Source: Nitratireductor thuwali
GTDB lineage: Bacteria; Pseudomonadota; Alphaproteobacteria; Rhizobiales; Rhizobiaceae
Assembly (NCBI RefSeq): GCF_036621415.1
Contig: NZ_CP030941.1
Location: 2,044,001-2,108,000 of the forward strand
DNA: 64,000 nt
Direction: 5' to 3'
Shown piece after piece: positions 7,691 through 22,233 of this stretch. The translations under genes were made by a program, and so were the position numbers. Position 1 is the stretch's first letter. The number at the start of each line of letters is the position of its first letter. The notes under the pieces are model-generated. The model did no database searches and was not told the DNA's origin. It saw nothing but the letters and a program-made list of their open reading frames with translations.

Positions 7691-7840
7691 CGCCTTACCG
7701 ATCCGCAGTACGGCGCGAGCCGGAACATGCCGAACGCTCGGCAGCAGAAGCGGGTAGGCAGGCAAAGCCGGTGGAAGTTGTTCGGGCACGGCCGCCACGG
7801 TCGCTTTCCATCTGCGCCGCCTTCGGCCAAAGTGCGCACC

Positions 7841-9250
7841 ATGCACCTGAAGCTCTCCGGCATCGCCAGATGCGTCATCTCCTGCTGTGTCCTGCCGGCA
7901 GGCACCCTCGCCGCCTTTGCCCACGCCTCTGAAAGGGGGCATGTGCTGCTCCTGCCGACCGGATACTACCTCATGGGCGGGGCGATGGCGGTCGTGCTCA
8001 GCTTCGCCATCCTGGCCTTGGCGCCGCCGGGCGCGCTGTTGCGTGCCGGCGCCTGGCGGCTTCCGCTCTGGCGCTACCGGCCCTTCGGCAAGGCCGCCGT
8101 CAGCACACTCTCCTTCGCCGCTTTCGGCTTCCTGATCTTCGTGGGCTGGGCCGGCAGCCGCGACCCGCTGGTCAATCTCCTGCCCTTGACCGTATGGACC
8201 CTGCTCTGGCTTTGCCTGACCCTGGCGCAGGGAGTTTTCGGCTTCTGGTGGCCATGGCTGAACCCCTGGTACGGGCCATGGCGTATCTGGACAGCCATGA
8301 CCAGCAGGAGCCAGCCCGTCCTGATCCTGCCGAACCCGGTGGGCAAATGGCCCGCCTTTGTGCTTCTGTTCGCCTTCGCCTGGTTCGAACTTGTCTCGCT
8401 TGCGCCCGAAGATCCCGGCAATCTTGCCAAGGTAGTGGCCGCCTATTGGCTGTTCACCTTCGTCTGCATCATTCTCTTCGGCTATGCAGCGTGGATGGAA
8501 AGAGGCGAGTTCCTGTCGGTCTTCTTCCGCCTGGTCTCCCGTCTCGCCGTATTCGCTGCCGGCGCCGGGCGCCTCTGGCTGGTTCTGCCGGGAGCGAAGC
8601 TGCGGCATGCGCCGGTTCTGCCGGCAAGCGGTGTCGCCTTCGTGCTCCTGGCGCTGGCCTACATTTCCTTTGACGGGCTGATGCGCACCTTCGCCTGGCT
8701 CCAGCTTATCGGCGTCAACCCGCTCGAATTTCCCGGCCGCTCTGCAGTCGTGGTGCAGAACACGCTCGGGCTGGCCGGCACGACTCTCCTGTTTGCCGCG
8801 CTTTTTCTCACGGCGATCCTTGCGGGCGAAAGCTTGGCCGGCGCCAAGGGAACCGCGCGTGCGGCCGGCGCGCTGGTGTGGTCGCTTACACCCATCGCGC
8901 TCGCCTATCACTTTTCCCACTATCTCGTCGTCATGCTGGTGAACGGGCAGTACGCGCTGGTCGCCGCCTCGGATCCGCTGGCGCGCGGCTGGAACCTGTT
9001 CGGCACCGCGGACATGCCCGTCCGCGCCGGCGTGACGCTGGGTGCCGATGCCGCCTGGGTCATCTGGAATGCGCAGGCGGCGGCAATCGTCGGCGGCCAC
9101 GTGCTGGCGGTGATTCTCGCGCACGCCACCGCCTACCGGCTTTACGGCAGTGCACGGCGCGCCGCGCTGAGCCAGATTCCGATGGCGATCCTGATGATAT
9201 TCTACACCGTTTTCGGCCTGTGGTTGCTGTCCACGCCCACCGCGGGCTGA
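7841..9250 (+). CDS. Polytopic membrane protein of unknown function
   Basis: A 469-residue, very hydrophobic protein. An N-terminal signal-like segment ending near FAHASERGH is followed by roughly ten to twelve membrane spans. Distinctive pieces are the tryptophan-rich GFWWPWLNPWYGPW, PNPVGKWPAF, AWFELVSLAPEDPG and AYHFSHYLVVML with two conserved-looking histidines. It recalls a family that databases sometimes label fenitrothion hydrolase, but I would not transfer that function. ATG at 7841 (MHLKLSG) puts the signal segment at the N-terminus; an in-frame ATG at 7727 would add 38 basic residues. It ends 149 bp before the ABC transporter genes, and no functional link is evident. Confidence 0.65.
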   Translation: MHLKLSGIARCVISCCVLPAGTLAAFAHASERGHVLLLPTGYYLMGGAMAVVLSFAILALAPPGALLRAGAWRLPLWRYRPFGKAAVSTLSFAAFGFLIFVGWAGSRDPLVNLLPLTVWTLLWLCLTLAQGVFGFWWPWLNPWYGPWRIWTAMTSRSQPVLILPNPVGKWPAFVLLFAFAWFELVSLAPEDPGNLAKVVAAYWLFTFVCIILFGYAAWMERGEFLSVFFRLVSRLAVFAAGAGRLWLVLPGAKLRHAPVLPASGVAFVLLALAYISFDGLMRTFAWLQLIGVNPLEFPGRSAVVVQNTLGLAGTTLLFAALFLTAILAGESLAGAKGTARAAGALVWSLTPIALAYHFSHYLVVMLVNGQYALVAASDPLARGWNLFGTADMPVRAGVTLGADAAWVIWNAQAAAIVGGHVLAVILAHATAYRLYGSARRAALSQIPMAILMIFYTVFGLWLLSTPTAG

Positions 9251-9353: not shown

Positions 9354-9399
9354 GCGCCCCACCGCCCGGTTGGACTGTCTTGAACAGAGGGGAACCGGT

Positions 9400-10704
9400 A
9401 TGACTGAAAATCGCAAATCCACCATTCTCACGCCGCACGGCCTGACGCGCCGAAATGCGTTGAAAGGCCTTGGAGCAGCAGCCGGCCTGATCGCCGCGCC
9501 CGGCTTTGTCCGCTATGGACAGGCCCAGTCCTCCGAACCCATCAAGATCGGCTTTCAGTGCCATCGCACCGGCATCGGCGCCGCCTATGGCCGCTGGTAT
9601 GAACGCACCACGACGGCCGCGGCCAAGCTGATCAACGAGGCCGGCGGCATCAACGGCCGGCCGCTCGAAATCATCATCGAGGACGATGGCACCGATCCCA
9701 AGCGCGGTGCCGAAGTGGTCGAGAAATTCGCCAACCAACATAAGGTCGATCTCGTCTACGGCACGCTGTTCAGCCACGTCGTCGTCGGCTCCGCGCCTGC
9801 CGCGGGCGAACTGAAGATGCCCTACTATGTGGTCAGCGAGGGCTACCACGTCGCCTCGGGCAAGATGAATCGCTATTGCGTGCAGCCGGGCATCACCGAC
9901 GTGAAGGCGCAGGTCCGCTCGGTTGCGCCGTGGATCGCCAATAATCTCGGCAAGAAGATCACCCTGATCTATCCCGACTACGCATTCGGCCACGATCACC
10001 GCGACTTCTTCGAGCCGGCGATCCAGGCCCAGGGCGGACAGGTGGTCGCCAAAGTGCCGATCCCGCCGACGGAGACCTCGTTCACCCGCTATCTGCCGCA
10101 GATCCCTTCCGACACGGATGTGATCTATCATGTCATGGTCGGCCCGGCGGTCCTCACCTTCGTCAAGGAACTCGGCGAGTTCTTCGGCAATTCCGGACCG
10201 CAGCTCTTCGGCTTCATCGATTCCCTCGAAGCCGTCGACATCAACAGCCCCGGCCTGGAATTTCTGGACGGCAGCCATTTCTGGGAAGGCATGCCGCGCT
10301 ATGCGCAGCCCGACCAGCCGGATTACGTATCCTTTTACCGCGAGACGGTCGGCATCGACGAAAACGGCGCCAGTGTCGACGATCCGAAGGATGTCTCCAC
10401 CGCTGCCCACATGTTCGGCTGCTGGGAGACGCTGTATGTCATCAAGGCGGCGATGGAAGCCTCCGGCTATGCCGGCCCCGGCGACCGCGCCAAGCTGATC
10501 GAAGCGACCGAGGCCATGACCGAAATGGAGGCCGGCCGCGAGCACCCGCAGGGCAAGAAGCGCTTCAACGGCAAGATTCACCAGGTCTTCGGCGAACAGA
10601 ATATCTCCAGGGTCGAAGGTGGCAGGCTCAACGTCGTGCATCGCACGTCGATCGAGGACGGTCTTTACGAGCCGGAGGCCGATTACACGACGATGTCGTT
10701 CTGA
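9400..10704 (+). CDS. ABC importer periplasmic binding protein (Peripla_BP_6), Tat signal
   Basis: A 434-residue solute-binding protein of the branched-chain amino acid/urea/amide type (type I fold). It begins with a twin-arginine signal, TRRNALKGLG at residues 16-25, followed by a hydrophobic stretch and a cleavage region near GQAQS. Export by Tat suggests folding, and perhaps ligand loading, before export. The mature part starts IKIGFQCHRTGIG and contains the INEAGGINGRPLEIIIEDD block of this family. ATG at 9400 follows an AGAGGGGAA ribosome site. It is the first gene of the importer operon. Ligand specificity cannot be read from sequence; the neighbouring operon suggests an aromatic N-heterocycle or amide. 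Confidence 0.9.
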   Translation: MTENRKSTILTPHGLTRRNALKGLGAAAGLIAAPGFVRYGQAQSSEPIKIGFQCHRTGIGAAYGRWYERTTTAAAKLINEAGGINGRPLEIIIEDDGTDPKRGAEVVEKFANQHKVDLVYGTLFSHVVVGSAPAAGELKMPYYVVSEGYHVASGKMNRYCVQPGITDVKAQVRSVAPWIANNLGKKITLIYPDYAFGHDHRDFFEPAIQAQGGQVVAKVPIPPTETSFTRYLPQIPSDTDVIYHVMVGPAVLTFVKELGEFFGNSGPQLFGFIDSLEAVDINSPGLEFLDGSHFWEGMPRYAQPDQPDYVSFYRETVGIDENGASVDDPKDVSTAAHMFGCWETLYVIKAAMEASGYAGPGDRAKLIEATEAMTEMEAGREHPQGKKRFNGKIHQVFGEQNISRVEGGRLNVVHRTSIEDGLYEPEADYTTMSF

Positions 10705-10995: not shown

Positions 10996-11877
10996 ATGGC
11001 CTTCGGACCCTATCTTCTCCTCGCCACGCTTGAAGGCCTCGTGACGGCGGCGGTGCTGTCGCTCATGGCGCTGGGCCTCTCGCTGGTCTTCGGCGTCATG
11101 CGCGTCGTCAACGTCGCCCATGGCGAGTTCTACATGCTGGGCGCGGTGCTGGCCTGGTGGTTCTCGACCATGCTGGGCGGCCATCCGGCCGTCGGCTTTC
11201 TGCTTGCGCTGGTGCTGAGCCCGCTCGTCGTCGCCGCTGTCGCCTTCGTCGCCGAGCGCCTTGTCCTTAGCCGGCTCAATTATGAGCCGGAGGCGACCAT
11301 CGTCGCCACCATCGGCCTGCTCTACATCATCCAGCAGCTCGCGCTCAGCTTTTACGGCGCGGACGCCCGCCCGGTGGAAGCGCCGTTCAGCTATCGCATC
11401 CAGCTGCCCTGGTTCGGCTATTCCGCCTATAAGCTCGCCGTCATCGCTGCGTCCATGGTTATGATGATCGGCACATGGTTGGTGCTTACCCGCACGAAGA
11501 TCGGGCTCGTCATGCGCGCCACGCAGTACGACCGCGAGACGGCGCAGGCCTTCGGCATTCCCGTCGGCAAGGTCTATGCCGGTGTCTTCGCGCTGGGCGC
11601 GGCGCTGGCCGCCTTTGCCGCTGTCCTCATCGTGCCGATCCAGCAGGCGCACTACCTGATGGGCCACGATCCGCTGCTTCTGTCCTTCATCGTCGTCATC
11701 ATCGGCGGGCTCGGCTCGCTGCGCGGCACGGTCGTCGCCGCCATTCTCATCGGGCTTTCGGACGGCATCGTCTCCATGTTCTTTTCGCCGACGCTCGCCA
11801 AGATGCTTGCGACGTTCCTCGTTGCCATGGTCCTCGTCTTCCGCCCGCAGGGCCTGTTCGGAGCGGCCGCGCGATGA
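10996..11877 (+). CDS. ABC importer permease, LivH type
   Basis: Inner-membrane permease of a HAAT-family importer (BPD_transp_2). The 293-residue protein has about eight hydrophobic spans and the family motif LGLSLVFGVMRVVNVAHGEFYM near the N-terminus (about residues 26-47). The cytoplasmic coupling segment is RATQYDRETAQAFGIPVGKVY and the C-terminal block is IVVIIGGLGSLRGTVVAAILIG. It overlaps the next permease gene by four nucleotides (ATGA), so the two are translationally coupled. It should pair with the LivM-type protein to form the translocation path. Confidence 0.93.
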   Translation: MAFGPYLLLATLEGLVTAAVLSLMALGLSLVFGVMRVVNVAHGEFYMLGAVLAWWFSTMLGGHPAVGFLLALVLSPLVVAAVAFVAERLVLSRLNYEPEATIVATIGLLYIIQQLALSFYGADARPVEAPFSYRIQLPWFGYSAYKLAVIAASMVMMIGTWLVLTRTKIGLVMRATQYDRETAQAFGIPVGKVYAGVFALGAALAAFAAVLIVPIQQAHYLMGHDPLLLSFIVVIIGGLGSLRGTVVAAILIGLSDGIVSMFFSPTLAKMLATFLVAMVLVFRPQGLFGAAAR

Positions 11878-12839
11878 TTTCCCTTCTCCCGCGCGGCAAG
11901 ACGCTGGTTCTGCATATCGGGATCGTCCTGGTGCTGCTCGCGCTCAATTTCATCCTTCCCGAATATCACCGCGGCGTCTTCTCGCGCGTCCTCGTGCTCG
12001 CCGTATTCGCCATGGGCTACAACATCGCGTTTGGCTACACGGGCCTGCTCAGCCTCGGGCATGCCATGTTCTTCGCCGCCGGCCTCTACGGCGCGGGGCT
12101 GACCATCTATCATCTGGACTGGGGCGTCTGGCCTGCTTTCGCGACGGGGCTTGCGGCCGGCCTCGCGCTGGCGCTTCTGGTGGGCGCGCTGGCGCTGCGG
12201 ACGACCGGCGTCGCCTTCATGATCGTGACACTGATGTTCGCCCAGGTCTTCTACCTCACCACCCTTTATTTCACGACCTATACGCGCGGCGAGGAAGGGC
12301 TGGTCCTGCGGCAGCAAGCCCGCGTTCTTGCGTTTCCCGGCGGCGCGCTCGATCTCTCCGACCCATCGACACGCTATCTGGTCGCGCTCACGCTCTTCAC
12401 CCTCGTCCTCGGCGCCGTGCTGTTTCTGGTCCGTGCGCCGTTCGGCCGTTCGCTGGTGGCCATAAAGGAGAACGAGGAGCGCATGCGCATGCTGGGCTAC
12501 GACGTCTTTGCCAACAAGCTTCTGTCCGTCGCTCTTTCGGGCCTCGTCTGCGCGGCCTCGGGCGCGGCCTATGCGGTGCTGTTCGGCTATGTCGGATCCG
12601 GTTTCGCGGCGATCCAGTATTCGATACTGCCGCTGCTCTGGGTGCTTTTAGGCGGCGCGGCGACGACGCTCGGACCCCTGATCGGCACGCTGCTCATGTT
12701 CTATGTGATCGACCTTGCCTCCAGCCACACGACGGCGCATCTCCTGGTCGTCGGCCTCGTCCTGATCGGTCTCATCCTTTACTTCCCGAAGGGCATCGTC
12801 GGCACGATACGAGAAAGGTGGGCGCCATGGCTGCCGTGA
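11874..12839 (+). CDS. ABC importer permease, LivM type
   Basis: Second inner-membrane permease of the importer, 321 residues with about nine to ten spans. It carries the LivM signature GYTGLLSLGHAMFFAAGLYG near residue 57 and the coupling-helix segment AIKENEERMRMLGYDVFANKLLSV. ATG at 11874 overlaps the LivH stop by four bases. Its own stop lies 13 nt inside the LivG reading frame. It should heterodimerise with the preceding permease and contact the LivG/LivF ATPases. Confidence 0.93.
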   Translation: MISLLPRGKTLVLHIGIVLVLLALNFILPEYHRGVFSRVLVLAVFAMGYNIAFGYTGLLSLGHAMFFAAGLYGAGLTIYHLDWGVWPAFATGLAAGLALALLVGALALRTTGVAFMIVTLMFAQVFYLTTLYFTTYTRGEEGLVLRQQARVLAFPGGALDLSDPSTRYLVALTLFTLVLGAVLFLVRAPFGRSLVAIKENEERMRMLGYDVFANKLLSVALSGLVCAASGAAYAVLFGYVGSGFAAIQYSILPLLWVLLGGAATTLGPLIGTLLMFYVIDLASSHTTAHLLVVGLVLIGLILYFPKGIVGTIRERWAPWLP

Positions 12840-13569
12840 ACCCCCTTCTTTCCACCAACGCGCTCAGCCGCTCCTTCGGCGGGCTGAAGGCCGTCGAGAA
12901 GGTGGATTTTTCGCTGCCTGAGGGCCAGACCCGCGCCATCATCGGGCCCAATGGTGCCGGAAAGACCACCTTCGTCAGCCTCGTCTGCGGCCGCGTTGTC
13001 CCCAGTTCGGGCACCGTGGTCTTCGACGGAAGCGACATCTCGCGGATGCCTGCCCACAAGCGCGTGCGCGCCGGCATCGCCTACACGTTTCAGATCACCT
13101 CCATCTTCGCCAATCTTACGGTGTTCGACAATGTGGCGCTTGCCGTCCAGCGGCGGCTGCTCGGCGACAGGCAGAACGGGCTCTCCAGCCGCCTGCTGCT
13201 GAAACACGGCCTCGACGCACTGGAAAAGGTCGGACTCGGCAGCTATGCCGAAGCGCTGGCGGGCAACCTCGCCTATGGCCACCAGCGCCTGCTGGAAGTG
13301 GCGATGGGGCTGGCGCTCAAGCCGCGCCTGCTGATCCTCGACGAGCCCACGCAGGGACTGTCGGACGGCGAGATCGAAAGCTTCATCGCGCTTGTCCGCG
13401 AGATCGGCAGCGAGGCGACCGTGCTTCTCATCGAGCACAATATGGACGTGGTCATGGCACTGGCCGAGCGCATCACTGTCATGGAACAGGGCCGCATCCT
13501 GGCCGAAGGCACGCCGGACGAAATCCGCGCGGACAAGGCCGTGCAACGAGCCTACCTCGGAGGCGATGC

Positions 13570-13573
<4 letters not shown>
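12827..13573 (+). CDS. ABC importer ATPase, LivG type
   Basis: Cytoplasmic ATPase subunit, 248 residues. Walker A GPNGAGKT is at residues 40-47, Walker B reads LLILDEPTQGL, and the switch histidine is in LLIEHNMDVVM. The ABC signature is in the variant form LAYGHQR, normal for LivG (LSYGxQ). ATG at 12827 has a GAGAAAGG ribosome site eight bases upstream; the frame is open far upstream but that part is the livM region in another frame. It overlaps livM by 13 nt and livF by 4 nt. Confidence 0.93.
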
Positions 13574-14277
<704 letters not shown>

Positions 14278-14342: not shown

Positions 14343-14807
14343 CTACCCGTCCGCGATCTTTCCCAAGAGCTTCAGAAAGATCTCCGCCTCGCGCGCGTTC
14401 AGCGGCTTCAGCGTTTCGGCCGTGATCCGCATCGCCACCGGCAACAGCCTCTCGACGAGCACGCGCCCCTCATCCGAAAGCCCCACCACCAGCCGCCGCC
14501 GGTCCAGGGCATGCGGCTTCAGTGTCACAAGTCCCCGCTTCTTCAGCCGGTCGATCACGCCCTTGATGGTCGCCGCATCCATGGCGATGAGCTGGCCGAG
14601 CTGGTTCTGCGATGTTTCGCCCACCTCATGAAGCCGCGCCAGAGCGGCGAACTGCGGCGGCGTGAGGTCGCCCACATGCGCCGCGAAAATGGACAGATGA
14701 CGCTGGTTCGCCTTGCGCAGGACGAAGCCGACCTGCTCGTGCAGGCGGTATTCTCCGCCCGCTTCCAGACTGTCCCGCGGCGGCGCCGGCTTGTCGGCCA
14801 GGCTCAT
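14343..14807 (-). CDS. MarR-family transcriptional regulator
   Basis: A 154-residue winged-helix regulator. The recognition part reads LTPPQFAALARLHEVGETSQNQLG, then DAATIKGVIDRLKKRGL, then the wing with DRRRLVVGLSDEG, all typical of MarR. It is the last gene of the six-gene minus operon and overlaps the preceding AA_synth gene by four bases, so it is made together with the enzymes. I infer that it controls the operon, pncA and the importer through the shared elements at 9307-9326 and 21531-21550, with the substrate or a pathway intermediate as inducer. Confidence 0.9.
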   Translation of the reverse strand: MSLADKPAPPRDSLEAGGEYRLHEQVGFVLRKANQRHLSIFAAHVGDLTPPQFAALARLHEVGETSQNQLGQLIAMDAATIKGVIDRLKKRGLVTLKPHALDRRRLVVGLSDEGRVLVERLLPVAMRITAETLKPLNAREAEIFLKLLGKIADG

Positions 14808-15388
14808 CGCAGCCCGTCCTGGCCTTTGATGTCTTCGGCACGAAGACCGCCCATGCGCGCATGGACGCGGGGTCCGCAGGTCATGGCGAGCACGAACAGG
14901 ATCTCATCGGGACGCGGCCCGTCGGCCATCCCGACTTCCATGGCGTCGAAATGGCTGCGCACATAGGCGGCGTTGATATGGCCGAGCGGGATGTCGATGC
15001 GCGCGCCGAAGGCGCCCACCTTCTTGGCCGAGGGCACGATGGCCCGGGAATCGCCGAGCCGCTCGCGCATGGCATAGCCGCCCGGCACATGCCAGAGCGC
15101 GCCGTGCTCCAGCTCGCCCGCCACGCCCACAATGGCCCCCTTGCCGAAACCGTCGATGACCGACGTGTCGCCGCCCAAGGCAGCGATCAGCCGGTCGGAG
15201 AGCTCCAGCCCCAGCGGTTTCAGATCGTCCATCGCGCTTTCGAGCTCGGAGACATAGCGCCCGGCAAAGGGATTGGCCACCAGAGCCATGGCCGCCGCCC
15301 GGCGGCGCGGCGTCTCGCGCACCGGCCCGCCCTCGTGAAATATCTCCTCGGTAAGCAACGCGATCTTTCGGACGAAAAACTCAGGCAT
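14804..15388 (-). CDS. AA_synth family protein (PF06684), possible ring-processing enzyme
   Basis: A 194-residue protein of the family called amino acid synthesis (PF06684, formerly DUF1185), whose biochemical function is not established. Visible family blocks are RKIALLTEEIFHEGG near the N-terminus, VGVAGELEHGALWHVPGG, and VPSAKKVGAFGARIDIPLGH in the middle. From memory the fold is chorismate-mutase-like, the fold also used by cyanurate/barbiturate ring-opening hydrolases, so a hydrolytic or tautomerase role on a cyclic amide is conceivable. That is inference. ATG at 15388 has a GAGGAAACG ribosome site; it overlaps UPF0280 by eight bases and MarR by four. Confidence 0.8.
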   Translation of the reverse strand: MPEFFVRKIALLTEEIFHEGGPVRETPRRRAAAMALVANPFAGRYVSELESAMDDLKPLGLELSDRLIAALGGDTSVIDGFGKGAIVGVAGELEHGALWHVPGGYAMRERLGDSRAIVPSAKKVGAFGARIDIPLGHINAAYVRSHFDAMEVGMADGPRPDEILFVLAMTCGPRVHARMGGLRAEDIKGQDGLR

Positions 15389-16295
15389 GGCTCGTTTCCT
15401 CAAGTAGAAGCATTTCATTGACTGGAATGGGACGTTGCCGCGGCGCTTCGCCGAAGCAAGACCGGGAGCCGCCCACCAGACGATGCCGGCCCTGCAGGAA
15501 AAGCGCCGCGCCCGCGATCAGGCCACGATCCCGCATGTCTTGCGCCACGGCAAGCCCTGCGTCGAGTGCTGTCGATGCTTCTTTCCCCGACAAAGGTCCG
15601 ACCGCCACCGTCACCATCTGGTCACCGAGATCGCTGTCCGGCGACAATTCATTAGCCGGCAATCGTTCTATGCCGCCATGGCCCGGCAGATTGACAGCGT
15701 TGGCGATCAGCGTTGCCGCCACATCGGCCTGCGCCGCGCTTGCCGCCAGCACCGTCACGGCGTCGGCGATGCCCAGCGAATGGCTTCGGCCGCGCCAGCC
15801 GCTGGTGGCGAGCCCGCGCACCGGGTCGCCGGCGCGGATCGTCAGCCGGTCGGAAAGGCCATGGCCGGTGCCGGCGATCGCCACCGTCGTCTCAGTGCCT
15901 GCGGCAAGGTGCAGCGCGGTATCGCCGCCATTGTTGACATAGGCGCGCCGGAGCCGCCGGCCGTCGACCATAGCAGCCAGCATCTCATCGGCGACGCCCC
16001 CGGCAACCGCTGCCATCGGCGTCACAAAGGCCGGATGGTGCCGGGCGCTGGCCGCTTCCATCCGGCGCGCGGTCGAGTGGCGGAAACGGCGTGCCCGCAG
16101 CCCGACCGGGCGGCGTAGCGCGGGCAACTCGCTCACGAGCTCTTCCAGAATGCTCCGGAACCGGGCGGCCGCCTGCGCATAAGCCTGCCTCACCTCGTTC
16201 TCCGGGCCGAAAGCTTCGACGATCAGGTCGATCGGCCCGTGGTTCATATGCAGCCGCCGCTTGTCGGGCAGCCAATGCACGGTCGGGCCCATCAT
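15381..16295 (-). CDS. UPF0280 family protein, ApbE-like
   Basis: A 304-residue protein of the uncharacterised UPF0280 family. Three blocks parallel the FMN transferase ApbE: NNGGD at 121-125 (ApbE N-x-GGD), ATSGWRGRSHSLGIADAV at 163-180 (ApbE TSG followed by the ADA motif), and the following TVLAAS helix. A role in flavin attachment or another nucleotide-dependent modification is therefore plausible. The neighbouring reductase is the obvious client, since the clostridial 6-hydroxynicotinate reductase is, as I recall, a flavoprotein with bound flavin. No signal peptide is seen, unlike periplasmic ApbE. It overlaps both neighbours (4 and 8 nt). Confidence 0.82.
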   Translation of the reverse strand: MMGPTVHWLPDKRRLHMNHGPIDLIVEAFGPENEVRQAYAQAAARFRSILEELVSELPALRRPVGLRARRFRHSTARRMEAASARHHPAFVTPMAAVAGGVADEMLAAMVDGRRLRRAYVNNGGDTALHLAAGTETTVAIAGTGHGLSDRLTIRAGDPVRGLATSGWRGRSHSLGIADAVTVLAASAAQADVAATLIANAVNLPGHGGIERLPANELSPDSDLGDQMVTVAVGPLSGKEASTALDAGLAVAQDMRDRGLIAGAALFLQGRHRLVGGSRSCFGEAPRQRPIPVNEMLLLEETSHA

Positions 16296-17818
16296 TTCCG
16301 GGGCTCCCGCCGCAATTGTGCCAGCGGCGGCCAGGGGCTGGCTGCCGGGGCTGCCTCCAGCCGCCGCTCGTTTAAATATTCGCCGCCCCGCTCCAGCACA
16401 TCCTCCAGCGAACGGATCTCGGCCTCATGGCCGCCGAGACGGATATAATCGTCGCGGCGCATGGTGAACTCGATCGGCGCGACCAGCGCCGGAGTCGGCA
16501 CATAGCCGAACGCATTGTCCGGCGTGCGCGAGACGTCCACCATGATGGTGATTCCCCCGCCCGGCCAGACATAGACCGGCGCCCCGCCGCAGGTGACATA
16601 AGTCTTCAGCCCCTGCACGGAGCGGGTGAGGTTGACCGGGTTTTCGGTCACGCCGGCGCGCAGGCTGCCGCCCGCCCCGCCCATGAAAAGCACGGTGCAA
16701 AGCGCGGGCTCGCAATTCTCCTCAATCAGGTCGACGGATCTGCGCAGCCGCTCGGGAAAGGCCTTCTCCACCGGCTTCAGATCCTCGTCGAGCTCGTAAT
16801 AGGCGAACTGCTCACCGGTGGTCGATACCATCAGCAGCGAGAGCCCCGGCCGGGCGCCTTTCTTTGCGTTGAAGCCGCCCAGGATCTCCAGCGGGTCGTC
16901 AATGGTGGTTCCGCCCCAGCCGAGCCCCGGCTCGGAGACCTTGAAATAGCGGCCGGGCGTCGATTTGCGTCCGACGATCTTTATCCCGGTGTCCTCCCAG
17001 CCGATCACCTTGCCGGCCTGATGCTCGGATACGACGCCGGTTATATGGTCGTCCACCACGACCACCTCGTCCACCAGCCCTTTCCATTGGGTCGCGAACA
17101 TGCCGATGGTGGCCGACCCGCAGCCGACCCGCATGCGGGCTTCGCGCTGGCCGTCGATCACCGGCGCCTTGCCGGCTTCCACGATGACCGTCGCGCCGCC
17201 GTCGATGGAAAGTTCGACCGGCTTCTTGTTGCACAGATCCATAAGCGCACGGCAGGTCACGCGGCCCTCGGACTTGGAGCCCCCGGTCAGGTGCTGCACG
17301 CCGCCCAGCGAGAGCATCTGGCTTCCATATTCGGCGGTGGTGACATGGCCTATCACCTCTCCCTCGGCCCGCACGGCAGCCGTCTCCGGGCCAAGATGCC
17401 GGTCGGTGTCGATCTTCACCTTGACCCCGCAATAGGAGAAGATCGCCTCGGTCACCACGGTGATTAGATCGACGCCCTCGACGTCCTGGCTCACGATAAA
17501 GGGTGCCGGCTTGTAATCCGGATAGGTCGTGCCTGCGCCAATGGCGCTGACGAACCGGCGTCTGGTATTGACCAGCCCGCCGTCCCAGGATCGCTCTTCC
17601 TCGAACGGCACCAGCGCCGCGCCATCCTCCGCCGCATGCTCCAATATGGTCACTGGATCGCAGCGCGTGATCCGCCCGCCGAAATTGCCGTAGCGGTCGC
17701 AGGCGCCGGTGCGGCCCTCGGCGATGTAGCACATGACGGGGCAGGCATCGCAGCGCAGCTTTTCTTCCTGGGCCTTCTTCGGCGGTTCCGCCTCGAAACG
17801 TTCGGAAAGCTCGTTCAT
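16292..17818 (-). CDS. 6-hydroxynicotinate reductase-like iron-sulfur protein
   Basis: A 508-residue protein resembling 6-hydroxynicotinate reductase (Hnr) of clostridial nicotinate fermentation, which reduces 6-hydroxynicotinate to 1,4,5,6-tetrahydro-6-oxonicotinate. Near the N-terminus four cysteines, C23-x2-C26-x3-C30-x9-C40 (in CDACPVMCYIAEGRTGAC), look like [4Fe-4S] ligands; further cysteines are C53, C130, C189 and C233. Partial matches to flavinylation motifs occur at 206-210 (DGGAT) and 234-237 (GSAT), but neither is canonical. Its place next to a molybdenum hydroxylase copies the ndh-hnr arrangement. Substrate identity is inferred by homology and context only. It overlaps both neighbours by four bases. 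Confidence 0.78.
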   Translation of the reverse strand: MNELSERFEAEPPKKAQEEKLRCDACPVMCYIAEGRTGACDRYGNFGGRITRCDPVTILEHAAEDGAALVPFEEERSWDGGLVNTRRRFVSAIGAGTTYPDYKPAPFIVSQDVEGVDLITVVTEAIFSYCGVKVKIDTDRHLGPETAAVRAEGEVIGHVTTAEYGSQMLSLGGVQHLTGGSKSEGRVTCRALMDLCNKKPVELSIDGGATVIVEAGKAPVIDGQREARMRVGCGSATIGMFATQWKGLVDEVVVVDDHITGVVSEHQAGKVIGWEDTGIKIVGRKSTPGRYFKVSEPGLGWGGTTIDDPLEILGGFNAKKGARPGLSLLMVSTTGEQFAYYELDEDLKPVEKAFPERLRRSVDLIEENCEPALCTVLFMGGAGGSLRAGVTENPVNLTRSVQGLKTYVTCGGAPVYVWPGGGITIMVDVSRTPDNAFGYVPTPALVAPIEFTMRRDDYIRLGGHEAEIRSLEDVLERGGEYLNERRLEAAPAASPWPPLAQLRREPRK

Positions 17819-20562
17819 GGCTTCCGCCCCGCTGCCTGAATGGCCGCCAGAACGCGCGACGGCGTTGCCGGCACCTTTTGGATCTCGGCGCCGCTGGCAT
17901 GGCGGATGGCGTTGAGGATGGCCGGCGCCGTGGGAATGAGCACGTGCTCGCCCAGCCCCTTGGCGCCAAAGGGACCTTCAGGGTCCGGCACCTCCACCAG
18001 GATCGTCTCGATCGGCGGCACATCGCCGATTGTGGGGATGAGGTAGTCGTGCAGGTTTTCCGTGCGGCCCGGCACATACTCCTCCATCAGCGCAAGGCCG
18101 ATCCCCTGGGCGATGCCGCCCTCGATCTGCCCTTCGGCCAGGATCGGATTGATGGCCCGGCCGACATCGTGGGCGGCGGTGATCTTCAACAGTCTCACCG
18201 TGCCCAGCCTCATGTCCACCTCCAGCTCCACGATCTGGGCGCCATAGCCATAGACGGCATAGGGCTTGCCCTGGCCCTTCCCGTCGAGCGCGGTGGTCGG
18301 CGGATCGTAGGTCTCCTCGGCCGAGAAGACATAGCCATGCGCATCGGCTGGAAGATTATCGAGTGCCACATGGCGCACCGCCTGGCCTTCGCGAATGACC
18401 AGCACCGTGCCCTCCAGCGATATTTCCGCCGCGTCCGACACGTTCGCGAAACGCAGGATCGTCTCACGCAGCGCGCGCCCCGCCTTCTCCGCCGCCTTTC
18501 CCGAAATGAAGGTCTGGCGGGAGGCGGATGTCTTGCCCGCGTCGGGCGTGATGCCGGTATCGCCGCCAAGCAGCGTGAAGGCCGACAGCGGCAGGCCGCT
18601 GGCGTCGGCGCATATCTGCGCGATCACCGTGTTCGATCCCTGGCCGATATCGACGGCGCCCTGGTGCAGGACGACGGCGCCGTCACGCGAAATCCCGACC
18701 CTGATCGTGGAGGGATTGGGCAGCGCCGTGTTTCCGCAGCCATACCAGCAAGAGGCGACGCCAATCCCCCGCCGCGTCTTAAAGCTCTCCTTGTTGAAGC
18801 TTTCCGCATCAGCCAGCGCGCGCTCCCAGTGCGGCCGCAGTTGCTCCAGACATTGGCGGATGCCGACGCCATGAAGTTCCTGGCCGCAGGTCGTCCGGTC
18901 GCCGTCCGACAGCGCATTGACCAGCCGGAATTCCAGCCGGTCCATCCCCAGCTTCCCGGCCAGGCGGTCGTAGAGCGTCTCCTGCATGATGGTCGCCTGC
19001 GGCACGCCGAAGCCACGAAACGCACCGGAGATCGGCCCGTTAGTATGGATCGCGCGGCCGACCGCCCGGTAGTTCGGCGTTCTGTATGGGCCCGACGCGT
19101 GCACCGGCACGCGATTGGCCACCGTCGGACCCCAGCTTGCGTATGCGCCTGTGTTGAAGTCGCCCTCGAAGATCATGCCTGTGATCCGGCCTTCCGCATC
19201 GGCGCCGATGCGGGCCTGCATCCTGGCGGGGTGGCGCTTGGTGGTCGACCGCATGGAATCGCCGCGGCTATAGACGAGAGCCGCGGGCCTGCCGGTTTTA
19301 AGCGCCACGAGGCCGATGAGCGGTTGAAGCGAGACGTCGAGCTTGGACCCGAACCCGCCGCCCGTCGCCAGCGGCACGATCCGCACCTTTTCCGGCGGCA
19401 GGCCCAACACCTTGGCCGTGTCGTCGCGATCCATGAAAGGGGCCTGGGTGCAGGCTTTTATGACCAGCGTGTCGCCATCGACCATGGCATAGCCGGCTTC
19501 CGGCTCGATATAGGCATGCTCCACATAGGACGTCTCCATCGAGCCCTCGACTATGGCCTCGGCGCGGGCGAAACCGGCCTCGGGATCGCCGCTTTCAACG
19601 AGCCCCTGCGTCAGGAGGTTGTCCGGGCGTTCCTCATGAACCAGCTTTGCGCCGGGGGTTCTGGCCTCTTCCGTCGTCAGGCAATACGGCAGTTCGGTCC
19701 AGGCGATCGGAAAACGGGCCGGATCGAGCGCCTCGATGGCGTCGCGTTCCCCTGCGATCAGCGCGACCGCTTCGCCCCGGAACCGGGCGCGTCCTTCCGC
19801 CAGAGCCGGCTGGTCGGCAAAGGGCGGAATGACGCCGAAGCGGTTTTCGCCGGGGATATCCGCCGCCGTGAAGACGCCGACGATGCCCGGATGCGCCGCG
19901 ATAAAAGCTTCCCTGTCGCCGATCTCGAAGGTCGCGTGCCAAAAAGGCGAACGCATCACCAGCACCGATAGCGCATCGGGCGGCCGCTCGTCGGCGCCGA
20001 AGATCTCCCGCCCCGTTATCTTGCGCTCGCCGTCAAGGCGGATGGGCGAAGCACCAACGGCCGCGCGCGGGGCGATGGTTCCGCTGTCGACGGCAACCGG
20101 CCTGTTAGCGTTCATCACCGCCTGCACGATCTTGCGGTAGCCCGTACAGCGGCACAAAACGCCGCCCAGCGCGTCCTGGACCTCCGCCTCCGAAGGTGTC
20201 GGGTTTTCATCCAGAAGCGCGCTTGCCGTAATCAGAAGACCCGGCGTGCAGATGCCGCACTGTGCCGCGCCATGGCGCAAAAAAGACTGCTGAAGGGCCG
20301 AAAGGCGACCATTCGAAAGCCCCTCCACCGTGCTCACCCGGCGGCCCGCGACGTCGGACGCGGGAACGAGGCAGGCGCAGACGACCTCGCCGTCGACCAG
20401 CACCGAGCACGCGCCGCAATCGCCGGCGTCGCAGCCGACCTTGGTTCCCGTCAACCCGACCTTATCGCGCAGAAGCGCGGAAAGCCGCTGAACCGGAGCA
20501 GTTTCGACGACGATCGGCCGCCCGTTGACCTCAAACGATAGGGAAATGCTTCCACCGCTCAT
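17815..20562 (-). CDS. Molybdenum hydroxylase, fused [2Fe-2S] and Mo-cofactor subunits (xanthine dehydrogenase family)
   Basis: A 915-residue fusion of the two-cluster iron-sulfur subunit and the molybdopterin subunit. Plant-type cluster ligands are C44, C49, C52 and C64; the second cluster uses C102, C105, C137 and C139. The Mo domain follows from about residue 170, with GGGFGSK, AFRGFGVPQ and the catalytic glutamate in GAKGLGE (Glu872). Layout and length match aldehyde oxidoreductase Mop, but here a separate FAD subunit precedes it, so electrons probably leave through FAD. Expected chemistry is hydroxylation of an aromatic heterocycle, such as nicotinate to 6-hydroxynicotinate. No Mo-insertion chaperone (XdhC) gene is in the operon. 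Confidence 0.9.
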   Translation of the reverse strand: MSGGSISLSFEVNGRPIVVETAPVQRLSALLRDKVGLTGTKVGCDAGDCGACSVLVDGEVVCACLVPASDVAGRRVSTVEGLSNGRLSALQQSFLRHGAAQCGICTPGLLITASALLDENPTPSEAEVQDALGGVLCRCTGYRKIVQAVMNANRPVAVDSGTIAPRAAVGASPIRLDGERKITGREIFGADERPPDALSVLVMRSPFWHATFEIGDREAFIAAHPGIVGVFTAADIPGENRFGVIPPFADQPALAEGRARFRGEAVALIAGERDAIEALDPARFPIAWTELPYCLTTEEARTPGAKLVHEERPDNLLTQGLVESGDPEAGFARAEAIVEGSMETSYVEHAYIEPEAGYAMVDGDTLVIKACTQAPFMDRDDTAKVLGLPPEKVRIVPLATGGGFGSKLDVSLQPLIGLVALKTGRPAALVYSRGDSMRSTTKRHPARMQARIGADAEGRITGMIFEGDFNTGAYASWGPTVANRVPVHASGPYRTPNYRAVGRAIHTNGPISGAFRGFGVPQATIMQETLYDRLAGKLGMDRLEFRLVNALSDGDRTTCGQELHGVGIRQCLEQLRPHWERALADAESFNKESFKTRRGIGVASCWYGCGNTALPNPSTIRVGISRDGAVVLHQGAVDIGQGSNTVIAQICADASGLPLSAFTLLGGDTGITPDAGKTSASRQTFISGKAAEKAGRALRETILRFANVSDAAEISLEGTVLVIREGQAVRHVALDNLPADAHGYVFSAEETYDPPTTALDGKGQGKPYAVYGYGAQIVELEVDMRLGTVRLLKITAAHDVGRAINPILAEGQIEGGIAQGIGLALMEEYVPGRTENLHDYLIPTIGDVPPIETILVEVPDPEGPFGAKGLGEHVLIPTAPAILNAIRHASGAEIQKVPATPSRVLAAIQAAGRKP

Positions 20563-21416
20563 GCCGCAACGCCTCGCTCTGCATCGGTGAAAGCGGCTTG
20601 GAGCAGCGCCCTTTCAACGATCTCTCGCGCCCCCAGCCTGCGATATTCGGCACTGCCGCGAACGTCGTCGATGGGGGACAATTCCGAAAGTGGATAATCT
20701 GCGACAAGTTCTGATATATTACTGATATATCTACCGATCAGCGCTTGCTCCAATCCCTCGATCCGCTGCGCCACTGCCGAGCAGGAGCCGACGGCGACCG
20801 CCGCCTCCACGATTCGCTCTCCTTCCAGTGCGATGCGCGCCGCAGCCATGGCGATGGATATGACGAGGTAGCGCCGCGAACCCAGCTTCACGAAGCTGGA
20901 CCGGCCGGCCGTCGCGTGCCTGGGCACATGCACCGCCGTTACGAGCTCGCCGGGCCGAAGCGCCGTTTTGCGGTTGCCGAGAACGAATTCAGACAGCCGG
21001 ACCAGGCGCTGGCCTTCATCGGCAGAACGCAGCTCAACGCGCGCGTCCAGCGCCAAGAGAGGCGGCATCCCATCGGCGGCGGGAGAAGCGTTGCACAGAT
21101 TGCCGGCCACCGTCCCACGGTTCTGGATCTGGATGGACCCTACCTCGCGTGCGGCCTGCTTGAGCATGTCGAAGGCCGGCGGCAGGGGATGGCGTATTAT
21201 CTCGGTCCAGCTCGTCCGCGCGCCGATGGCGACATGGTCGTCGGTCTCGGTGATGCCGGCGAGCTCCGGCAGGCCGTTGATGTCGAGCACGTCCTGCTTG
21301 AGGGGCCCGGCACCCAGTGCCGGGTAGAAATCGGTGCCGCCCGCAAGCACGGTCCATGGCTTCTGCTTCAGCAGAAGCAGCGCCTCCTCGAGTTCGGTCG
21401 GTCTGGCATAGTCCAT
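20559..21416 (-). CDS. FAD-binding subunit of the molybdenum hydroxylase
   Basis: The medium subunit of a xanthine dehydrogenase-type enzyme, 285 residues. FAD-binding motifs are AGGTDF at 25-30 and GTVAGNLCNASPAAD at 101-115, followed by the CO dehydrogenase flavoprotein C-terminal domain. It is the first gene of the minus operon and overlaps the Mo subunit gene by four bases. I start at ATG 21416 (MDYARPTE), the family start; a GTG 36 nt upstream is possible. Near the 3' end an AT-rich inverted repeat (20713-20731) stands out against the GC-rich background but lies within coding sequence. Confidence 0.9.
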   Translation of the reverse strand: MDYARPTELEEALLLLKQKPWTVLAGGTDFYPALGAGPLKQDVLDINGLPELAGITETDDHVAIGARTSWTEIIRHPLPPAFDMLKQAAREVGSIQIQNRGTVAGNLCNASPAADGMPPLLALDARVELRSADEGQRLVRLSEFVLGNRKTALRPGELVTAVHVPRHATAGRSSFVKLGSRRYLVISIAMAAARIALEGERIVEAAVAVGSCSAVAQRIEGLEQALIGRYISNISELVADYPLSELSPIDDVRGSAEYRRLGAREIVERALLQAAFTDAERGVAA

Positions 21417-21530: not shown

Positions 21531-21550
21531 CTCGTTTGTATACGAATGAT
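21531..21550. promoter_or_regulatory. Candidate operator between the Mo-hydroxylase operon and pncA
   Basis: The element ends in GTTTGTATACGAATGAT and shares 15 of 20 positions with 9307-9326. Its core T-x-GTATAC-x-A is palindromic. It lies about 115 bp upstream of the FAD-subunit gene and 78 bp upstream of pncA, so one site could serve both divergent promoters. The joint consensus is GTTTGTAYACRARTGAT. Confidence 0.6.
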
Positions 21551-21627: not shown

Positions 21628-22233
21628 ATGGCCGATGAGGCGCTGATCGTCATCGACGTCCAGAACGATTTCTGCCCGGGCGGCGCACTCGCGGTGAACG
21701 AGGGCGACCAGGTGGTGCCGCTCATCAACCGGCTGATCCAGCGGTTCGACCATGTGGTGCTGACCCAGGACTGGCATCCCGCCGGGCATTCGAGCTTCGC
21801 GTCCCGCCATACCGGCAAGCAGCCCTTCGAGACCATCGCCATGCCCTACGGCGAACAGACACTGTGGCCGGACCATTGCGTGCAGGGCACGCACGGGGCG
21901 GAGTTTCACGATGACCTGGAATGGACGAAGGCGGAGCTGGTGATCAGGAAGGGTTTCCGCAGGGAAATCGACAGCTACTCGGCCTTCTTCGAGAACGACC
22001 ACAGAACCCCGACGGGCCTTTCTGGCTATCTGCGCGAGCGCGGCATCACAAGGGTCACGCTGGCCGGGCTCGCTACCGACTACTGCGTGGCCTATTCGGC
22101 GCTGGACGCGCGCAGGCAGGGCTTCGAGGCAGCTGTCCTGCTCGACGCCTGCCGCGGCATCGATCTCGGCGGATCAATGGCGGCGATGGAGAAAAGGATG
22201 CGCGAGGCGGGTGTGGCGCTGGCCCAAACGTGA
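21628..22233 (+). CDS. pncA: Nicotinamidase
   Basis: Hydrolyses nicotinamide to nicotinate and ammonia. The 201-residue protein has the catalytic triad Asp10, Lys108 and Cys153 (in LATDYCVAYSALD) and metal ligands Asp48, His50 and His83 (DWHPAGHSSF, PDHCVQGT), as in PncA. ATG at 21628 follows GGAGG with six bases spacing. It is divergent from the molybdenum-hydroxylase operon across a 211-bp region holding the candidate operator, so it may feed nicotinate into that pathway besides its NAD-salvage role. It converges on asd, whose terminator hairpin begins at the last base of the pncA stop codon. Confidence 0.95.
   Translation: MADEALIVIDVQNDFCPGGALAVNEGDQVVPLINRLIQRFDHVVLTQDWHPAGHSSFASRHTGKQPFETIAMPYGEQTLWPDHCVQGTHGAEFHDDLEWTKAELVIRKGFRREIDSYSAFFENDHRTPTGLSGYLRERGITRVTLAGLATDYCVAYSALDARRQGFEAAVLLDACRGIDLGGSMAAMEKRMREAGVALAQT

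Follow-up and report, generated by a model that had tools for sequence, protein, structure and literature searches.

How does a bacterium complete the breakdown of a nitrogen heterocycle when the enzymes that hydroxylate and reduce the ring are encoded side by side and no gene for opening it lies nearby? This question is raised by an operon in a 64,000-nt stretch of the Nitratireductor thuwali chromosome (hereafter the window), in which six open reading frames (ORFs), all on the minus strand, fill positions 14343-21416 with consecutive overlaps of 4, 4, 4, 8 and 4 nt. An earlier note on this DNA had proposed a fully overlapping six-gene operon for reductive N-heterocycle degradation, and its ORF coordinates and all five overlaps are confirmed here. 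The genes encode two subunits of a molybdenum hydroxylase, a relative of 6-hydroxynicotinate reductase (Hnr), a UPF0280 protein, an AA_synth protein and a MarR-family regulator (Table 1). We conclude that the operon is very probably a module for the reductive degradation of nicotinate (vitamin B3). The best explanation of the locus as a whole, to which we assign a probability of about 0.7, is a nicotinamide/nicotinate module of the reductive tetrahydro-oxonicotinate (THON) pathway in which the ring would be opened by CapAB, a lactamase encoded elsewhere in the genome, and in which UPF0280 would serve Hnr.

Counts on relatives use loci (L numbers) and genomes (G numbers) outside the window. Hnr was sought in 41 relatives and in a 397-genome sample of the phylum, and was found in 11 and 39 of these, respectively. 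One of the 39 (G417) has a chance-level match of 35 residues (E 7e-4) and was dropped before counting, and the distinct Hnr-positive genomes total 48. Many Hnr operons have an amidohydrolase gene as a neighbour, and the enzyme is enamidase (PDB 2vun, E 1.5e-109). Its absence from the window, pointed out in the earlier note, extends to the whole genome, in which no enamidase match was found at E 1e-30 and CapA is present instead. Loci without enamidase often hold a gene pair matching caprolactamase and acetophenone carboxylase subunits, and in the window's genome this CapAB pair lies ~160 kb from the operon on the same chromosome.

The two ring-opening enzymes were compared in 66 genomes, 48 with Hnr and 18 without. 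CapA matches leave a gap between at least 60% and at most 46% identity, and enamidase matches between at least 64% and 41-42%; the lines used (E 1e-215 for CapA, and at least 60% and at least 64% identity) were chosen after these gaps had been seen. A 41% amidohydrolase in G028 and two at 41-42% in Hnr-negative genomes (G239 and G275) were dropped as enamidases before counting. The 48 Hnr-positive genomes then comprise 27 with CapA and 23 with enamidase, two of them with both and none with neither, and neither enzyme occurs in any of the 18 others. For the 397-genome sample, 38 Hnr-positive genomes divide into 22 with enamidase (at least 64%) and 18 with CapA (at least 62%), two having both and none neither. 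None of the 359 other genomes has either enzyme at these similarity levels; two weaker amidohydrolases (41-42%) occur in Hnr-negative genomes of the sample. The Hnr, CapA and enamidase scans are taken here as covering the same 397 genomes, given that their settings, totals and visible handles agree.

Counted by genus (n = 25), CapA occurs in 14 and enamidase in 11. An independent scan of 72,556 plasmid records yielded 26 Hnr plasmids, of which 16 carry enamidase (67-76% identity) and 10 carry CapA (63-70%), none with both or neither and each within 10 kb of Hnr. These genomes are not independent of one another (10 of the 23 enamidase genomes belong to one genus and 12 of the 26 Hnr plasmids to Sulfitobacter), and P values for them ignore kinship. 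Because both types occur within each of three families (f1, f18 and f32), the distribution indicates that the exchange between enamidase and CapA has happened more than once. From this comparison of genomes, the missing enamidase appears to have been replaced by the ATP-dependent lactamase CapAB.

The CapA and CapB proteins of the window's own genome (L099) match PDB entries 6yra and 7hk5 and the Pfam families PF01968, PF05378 and PF02538 (Hydantoinase_A and Hydantoinase_B). ATP motifs were found by eye in the CapA translation, and CapB retains two metal motifs, NDPYLGGTHLMD and GHWPDIGG, in agreement with the description of caprolactamase in excerpts of PMC8453981. According to the same excerpts, the known caprolactamase uses CapA and ATP to phosphorylate the lactam, and a metal site in CapB for the hydrolysis (PMC8453981). 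The Hydantoinase_A/_B domains and structure matches are common to the family of the Pseudomonas jessenii caprolactamase (PMC8453981, excerpts), N-methylhydantoinase and 5-oxoprolinase, whereas the CapAB type considered here goes with Hnr and not with caprolactam genes. Among the Creative Commons-licensed PMC papers listed, we found none that connects a lactamase of the CapAB type with the breakdown of nicotinate.

The substrate is very probably nicotinate or nicotinamide itself, because a gene for the nicotinamidase PncA lies next door, enamidase stands by Hnr in related loci and Eubacterium barkeri has the same parts. A nicotinate fermentation cluster of E. barkeri with Hnr and enamidase is said to have been described by Alhapel in 2006. 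A scan with the 2vun enamidase sequence found E. barkeri VPI 5359 at 100% identity, and the gene order there (L119) is Hnr, an overlapping UPF0280, an unassigned ORF, the flavin adenine dinucleotide (FAD) subunit, the [2Fe-2S] subunit, two molybdenum subunits, another unassigned ORF, enamidase and AA_synth. Both clusters thus combine Hnr and an overlapping UPF0280 with FAD, Fe-S and molybdenum hydroxylase genes and AA_synth. They differ in that E. barkeri has enamidase, a molybdenum subunit split in two and an Hnr with N-terminal 2x[4Fe-4S] motifs, whereas the window has a fused molybdenum subunit, a core form of Hnr and, at E 1e-30, no enamidase anywhere in its genome. UPF0280 also lies directly 3′ of Hnr in L120, L122, L125 and L128. 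Since both of the 'unknown' genes are present in the E. barkeri cluster, UPF0280 and AA_synth have always belonged to the cluster of the known pathway.

A nicotinate cluster of Azorhizobium, Bradyrhizobium, Rhodopseudomonas and strain SG-6C has likewise been described, and SG-6C was shown to grow on nicotinate and 6-hydroxynicotinate (PMC3511419, excerpts). As far as the excerpts go, that cluster encodes steps one to three, the third of which, ring opening, falls to a protein homologous to one in the E. barkeri cluster, whereas the window is without this step and its genome has CapAB elsewhere; we infer from the legend and text that its two unknown proteins are UPF0280 and AA_synth. The interpretation in the earlier note therefore holds in part. 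It was right about a reductive N-heterocycle module. Its view of the locus as an undescribed system does not survive, given the E. barkeri cluster and the rhizobial cluster published in 2012 (PMC3511419, excerpts), and the absence of enamidase ceases to be a sign of a different substrate once CapAB is seen to take its place in the phylogenetic profile. UPF0280 and AA_synth are also unlikely to fill the later steps, as that note had suggested, because they are equally present alongside enamidase; as replacements for enamidase itself both were rejected on the same ground. The pathway is known and published in outline, and what is new is the variant ring-opening step and a testable proposal for UPF0280.

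Neighbourhoods were fetched for 40 of the 48 Hnr-positive genomes, the window belonging to the other eight. The gene arrangement around Hnr exceeds chance, because UPF0280 adjoins Hnr or lies within ~0.6 kb of it in all 40 neighbourhoods and AA_synth is near it in 37. The earlier note would have counted as refuted had Hnr never occurred with heterocycle hydroxylases, but Hnr does keep such company: the Fe-S subunit of a molybdenum hydroxylase is present in 36 neighbourhoods, with an orthologous FAD/molybdenum enzyme in 24 and a distant type in 12, and none was seen in four. PncA adjoins the operon in 16 of the 40 loci. Counted by whole genome, AA_synth occurs in 47 of the 48, and by coordinates it lies within ~3 kb of Hnr in 45. 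The large subunit of the other type of hydroxylase combines molybdenum cofactor (MoCo) domains with cytochrome c domains in L063, and since some loci use this type, the first enzyme is exchangeable as well. This alternative, nicotinate-hydroxylase-like large subunit (L063, 11309-14863, with similar ORFs in nine other loci) stands divergently next to Hnr in Bradyrhizobium-type clusters.

A shared palindrome connects the operon with capA. In the genome of 4.75 Mb the pattern TTNGYATACNAA is matched four times, against twice for its reversed control, and two of the four sites have a palindromic GTATAC core, one in the interval between the operon and pncA and the other between a ferredoxin-NADP reductase gene and capA. 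Both of these promoters, the proposed targets of the MarR protein, carry TTNGTATACNAA. Among related loci, 21 of 41 have TTNGYATACNAA before the operon. It stands at the CapA start or up to 400 bp upstream of it in 17 of 26 genomes (26 of the 27 were examined), and 5 of 12 enamidase loci have it upstream of that gene; in two of these 12 the start falls outside the stretch. In Neorhizobium it is present at the importer, hnr and capA promoters. The 23 background matches of this locus survey count palindromes twice and include sites before capA and enamidase. A test confined to the window was not significant (two matches at one place, 0.67 expected, with 14 of 100 shuffles reaching two), and the case for the palindrome is made by the related loci and the genome-wide count. 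Because it is common to the operon and capA, CapAB is tied to nicotinate independently of adjacency in the window's strain. The MarR protein is a probable repressor responsive to 6-hydroxynicotinate or nicotinate, and the regulator of the Pleomorphomonas cluster carries the annotation NicR.

Several observations weigh against the reading that we prefer. Two genomes (G162 and G210) carry both ring-opening enzymes. Of the 17 plasmids with CapA of at least 60% identity, 7 carry no Hnr (six from Sinorhizobium medicae and one from Rhizobium rhododendri), and the CapA type is therefore not restricted to Hnr clusters. Of the 26 genomes, 9 have no palindrome before CapA, 20 of the 41 loci have none before the operon, and none is present in the Pleomorphomonas or S. 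medicae stretches. In L052 and L054, the only loci scored, CapA reaches 490 and 463 bits and CapB 323 bits, against caprolactamase cut-offs of 1000 (NF050156 and NF050157); at about half and a third of these values, the substrate is not given by the family. One Hnr-positive genome (G174) is without AA_synth, and 6 of the 18 Hnr-negative genomes have it. Gene tracing in the window's genome ends at ring opening. Finally, gene content, co-occurrence, operator distribution and, in a predicted model, the fold of UPF0280 are established, and it is from these that we infer every biochemical step.

One might suppose, then, that in CapAB-type strains the module degrades some other N-heterocycle, such as a substituted pyridine or another lactam precursor, rather than nicotinate. 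The variable first-step hydroxylase (24 orthologous, 12 distant and four not seen among 40 loci) would fit such a scheme, as would the difference between CapAB and enamidase as enzymes and the S. medicae plasmid that has CapAB and AA_synth without Hnr. However, PncA adjoins the operons of CapAB type in the window's genus and in the Mesorhizobium-like group, and enamidase-type clusters use the same Hnr, UPF0280, hydroxylase and operator. A different substrate is therefore improbable in our view, and nicotinate remains the substrate that we favor.

Two loci are worth recording here. The S. medicae stretch (L146; CP140910, 559720-577753) holds genes for a CapA-type lactamase, AA_synth, a MarR protein, an isochorismatase-type hydrolase, two nucleoside hydrolases and an ABC transporter, with no Hnr within the stretch; it is a related but different cluster, perhaps for a nucleoside-derived lactam. 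In Sulfitobacter pontiacus (L145; NZ_CP049345, 74000-79078), an AMP-binding protein, a 3-hydroxyacyl-CoA dehydrogenase, an enoyl-CoA hydratase and an acyl-CoA dehydrogenase are encoded beside enamidase, and these genes are candidates for the steps after ring opening.

The reductase itself bears on the role of UPF0280. Hnr of the window's species has no Pfam match at E 1e-3, and its named top matches are mostly annotated as 6-hydroxynicotinate reductase. It is 42% identical to E. barkeri Hnr, with similarity over the full length, a conserved core and a shared four-Cys motif (C23-C26-C30-C40 in the window protein, or C-x2-C-x3-C-x9-C). These four N-terminal cysteines, together with C233 and C369, are invariant in Hnr. 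Upstream of the motif, two ferredoxin-type Cys motifs are present in E. barkeri Hnr (L119) and in 120 of 120 deltaproteobacterial relatives; N-terminal 2x[4Fe-4S] ferredoxin motifs are absent from window Hnr and from all 120 of its closest relatives. The family annotation spans forms with and without the ferredoxin domain. To judge from the sequences, the aerobic form of Hnr has lost this domain and kept UPF0280, which argues that UPF0280 serves the Hnr core. From its family and gene context, window Hnr would reduce 6-hydroxynicotinate to THON.

UPF0280 is present in exactly one copy in each of the 48 Hnr-positive genomes and in none of the 18 Hnr-negative genomes tested. A predicted model gives it an ApbE-like fold. 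Against Pfam ApbE, the window protein scores 8.7 bits (E 1.5), below the cut-off of 25.6, and E. barkeri UPF0280 passes with 29.3 bits. No literature was found under the name UPF0280 among Creative Commons-licensed PMC papers, and several papers were found under COG2122. UPF0280 probably acts in the maturation of Hnr, for example by inserting a cofactor, rather than as the catalyst of a pathway step.

This service could take more than one form. Alhapel is said to have reported in 2006 that E. barkeri Hnr contains a covalently bound flavin, which would be explained if UPF0280 attached the flavin to Hnr covalently, in the way that ApbE modifies other flavoproteins. However, neither the 29 invariant columns of the UPF0280 alignment (A2) nor those conserved to at least 90% include a His, and the region of the ApbE active-site His aligns with an invariant Gly, an alignment made there solely to an H257G mutant chain. 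Nor is the candidate target GCGSA[T] of Hnr conserved: position 237 is Ala in 10 of the 120 close relatives, and of the 120 deltaproteobacterial relatives 117 have Ser there. Because the Thr of GCGSAT is thus not conserved, attachment of a flavin to it in the manner of ApbE was rejected as a general rule. The window protein matches ApbE at E 1.5 only, and the ApbE homology of COG2122 seems not to reach the flavin-binding region (PMC5764234, excerpts). We consider a flavin transferase unlikely.

A second form would be delivery of sulfur, persulfide or Fe-S clusters to Hnr, as a paralogue may do for the DUF39 homocysteine system. In excerpts of PMC5764234, the DUF39/NIL-ferredoxin/COG2122 homocysteine system also has a UPF0280 (COG2122) partner, Desulfovibrio shows a genetic requirement for COG2122 together with DUF39, and COG2122 is proposed to have a role involving a persulfide. 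Ten genomes were reached from loci in other phyla; the three of them with DUF39 (PF01837), and no others, have a second copy of UPF0280, and two of these three have a row of DUF39, NIL/ferredoxin and UPF0280. The six invariant cysteines of Hnr would suit delivery of this kind. Yet UPF0280 of the Hnr-linked type has no conserved Cys, the DUF39 system acts on another substrate and no sequence homology between Hnr and DUF39 was shown. Hnr as a distant DUF39 homologue is in fact unsupported (hhalign P 0.073 over 22 columns; 0.065 for the unrelated control pair A2/A4 and 0.57 for A3/A2). Delivery is a tentative and somewhat unlikely reading, and maturation of Hnr in the broader sense is what we retain. 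In L140 and L141, DUF39, NIL/ferredoxin and the second UPF0280 stand in a row, and the same genomes also have an Hnr-linked UPF0280.

AA_synth seems to belong with ring opening. It adjoins CapAB in G005, whose Hnr operon has none, stands beside enamidase in E. barkeri and overlaps capA in Pleomorphomonas. RidA-type proteins act on enamines, and by analogy AA_synth, which has a chorismate-mutase-like BCM fold (PMC2954203, excerpts), might hydrolyse or tautomerise the enamine produced by ring opening. That AA_synth follows the ring-opening enzyme in these genomes and in G162 and G210, and accompanies CapAB without Hnr on the S. medicae plasmid, is consistent with such a role. Nevertheless, the fold analogy is loose, G174 manages without the protein and a role in amino-acid metabolism or sensing was proposed in 2010 (PMC2954203, excerpts), so that an enamine activity is a doubtful guess. 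The two genomes with both ring-opening enzymes also have a pair of AA_synth genes next to an extra enamidase and at a distance from Hnr (G162:C11:55955-58299 and G210:C11:29775-32191).

In the pathway that we propose, a LIV-type importer would bring in the substrate, PncA would convert nicotinamide to nicotinate, the molybdenum/Fe-S/FAD hydroxylase would form 6-hydroxynicotinate and Hnr would reduce this to THON. The two-subunit, ATP-dependent lactamase CapA-CapB, of the hydantoinase/oxoprolinase/caprolactamase family, would then open the six-membered lactam in place of enamidase, with CapA phosphorylating the lactam and CapB hydrolysing it to an enamine acid that would lose ammonia to give 2-formylglutarate. 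AA_synth may act on that enamine, UPF0280 would serve Hnr one-to-one, most likely in cofactor insertion or maturation, and the MarR protein would control the operon, pncA, CapAB and the ferredoxin-NADP reductase gene through the common palindrome. With this proposal, what looked like a pathway lacking some of its steps becomes a complete hypothesis, open to test, for widespread soil and marine bacteria. If it is true, one reductase feeds either a metal amidohydrolase or an ATP-dependent lactamase, and a lactamase subfamily annotated as hydantoinase, oxoprolinase or acetophenone carboxylase gains a proposed substrate. UPF0280/COG2122 would gain a second, easily assayed client besides DUF39, with a function that could be tested in an ordinary aerobic bacterium. 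A bolder version, somewhat short of an even chance, holds that enamidase and a THON-specific ATP-dependent lactamase are two interchangeable ring-opening chemistries fed by one reductase, and that UPF0280 represents a new class of cofactor-maturation proteins with paralogues for Hnr and for the DUF39 homocysteine synthase.

Table 1. Operon, probable operator and flanking genes, with positions in the window.
Feature	Position	Strand	Evidence
LIV-type importer, periplasmic substrate-binding protein	9361-10704	+	Peripla_BP_6 E 2e-53
Importer permease, LivH type	10996-11877	+	BPD_transp_2 E 8e-38
Importer permease, LivM type	11874-12839	+	BPD_transp_2 in 454-aa ORF; start inferred from relative L045
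Importer ATPase, LivG type	12818-13573	+	ABC_tran in 588-aa ORF; start inferred from relative L045
Importer ATPase, LivF type	13570-14277	+	ORF and translation; tblastn query matched in related loci
MarR-family regulator	14343-14807	-	MarR/MarR_2 Pfam matches
AA_synth (DUF1185) protein	14804-15388	-	PF06684 E 1e-66, 223.8 bits (cut-off 27); 3byq E 7e-54
UPF0280 protein, ApbE-like fold; Hnr partner (putative maturation factor)	15381-16295	-	Above NF003322 cut-off
6-Hydroxynicotinate reductase Hnr, core form	16292-17818	-	Named homologues; 42% identity to E. barkeri Hnr
Hydroxylase subunit, fused [2Fe-2S] and molybdopterin	17815-20562	-	Fer2, Fer2_2, MoCoBD_1 E 2e-72, MoCoBD_2 E 2e-71
FAD subunit of molybdenum hydroxylase (putative nicotinate hydroxylase)	20559-21416	-	FAD_binding_5 E 1e-42, CO_deh_flav_C E 3e-14
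Palindrome TTTGTATACGAA, probable operator between operon and pncA	21535-21546		Only exact TTNGYATACNAA site in window
Nicotinamidase PncA, divergent neighbour of operon	21628-22233	+	NF008623 224.3 bits (cut-off 174); PDB 2wt9 E 5.8e-79

The flanks of the operon complete the picture. The importer that the earlier note saw converging on the operon is a complete LIV-type set, with a binding protein, two permeases and two ATPases reaching to 14277; that note's reading of the locus did not include the PncA neighbour. The structure matches of the AA_synth protein include 2qtp as well as 3byq. A 507-aa membrane-protein-like ORF (7727-9250, plus strand) without a Pfam or NCBIfam match adjoins the gene for the importer binding protein, and its relatives occupy the equivalent position in L045, L061 and L067. 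In one further locus (L081; G056:C1:2969808-2971252), Hnr appears as two adjacent matches covering query residues 16-248 and 249-497, and the gene there looks broken or frame-shifted.

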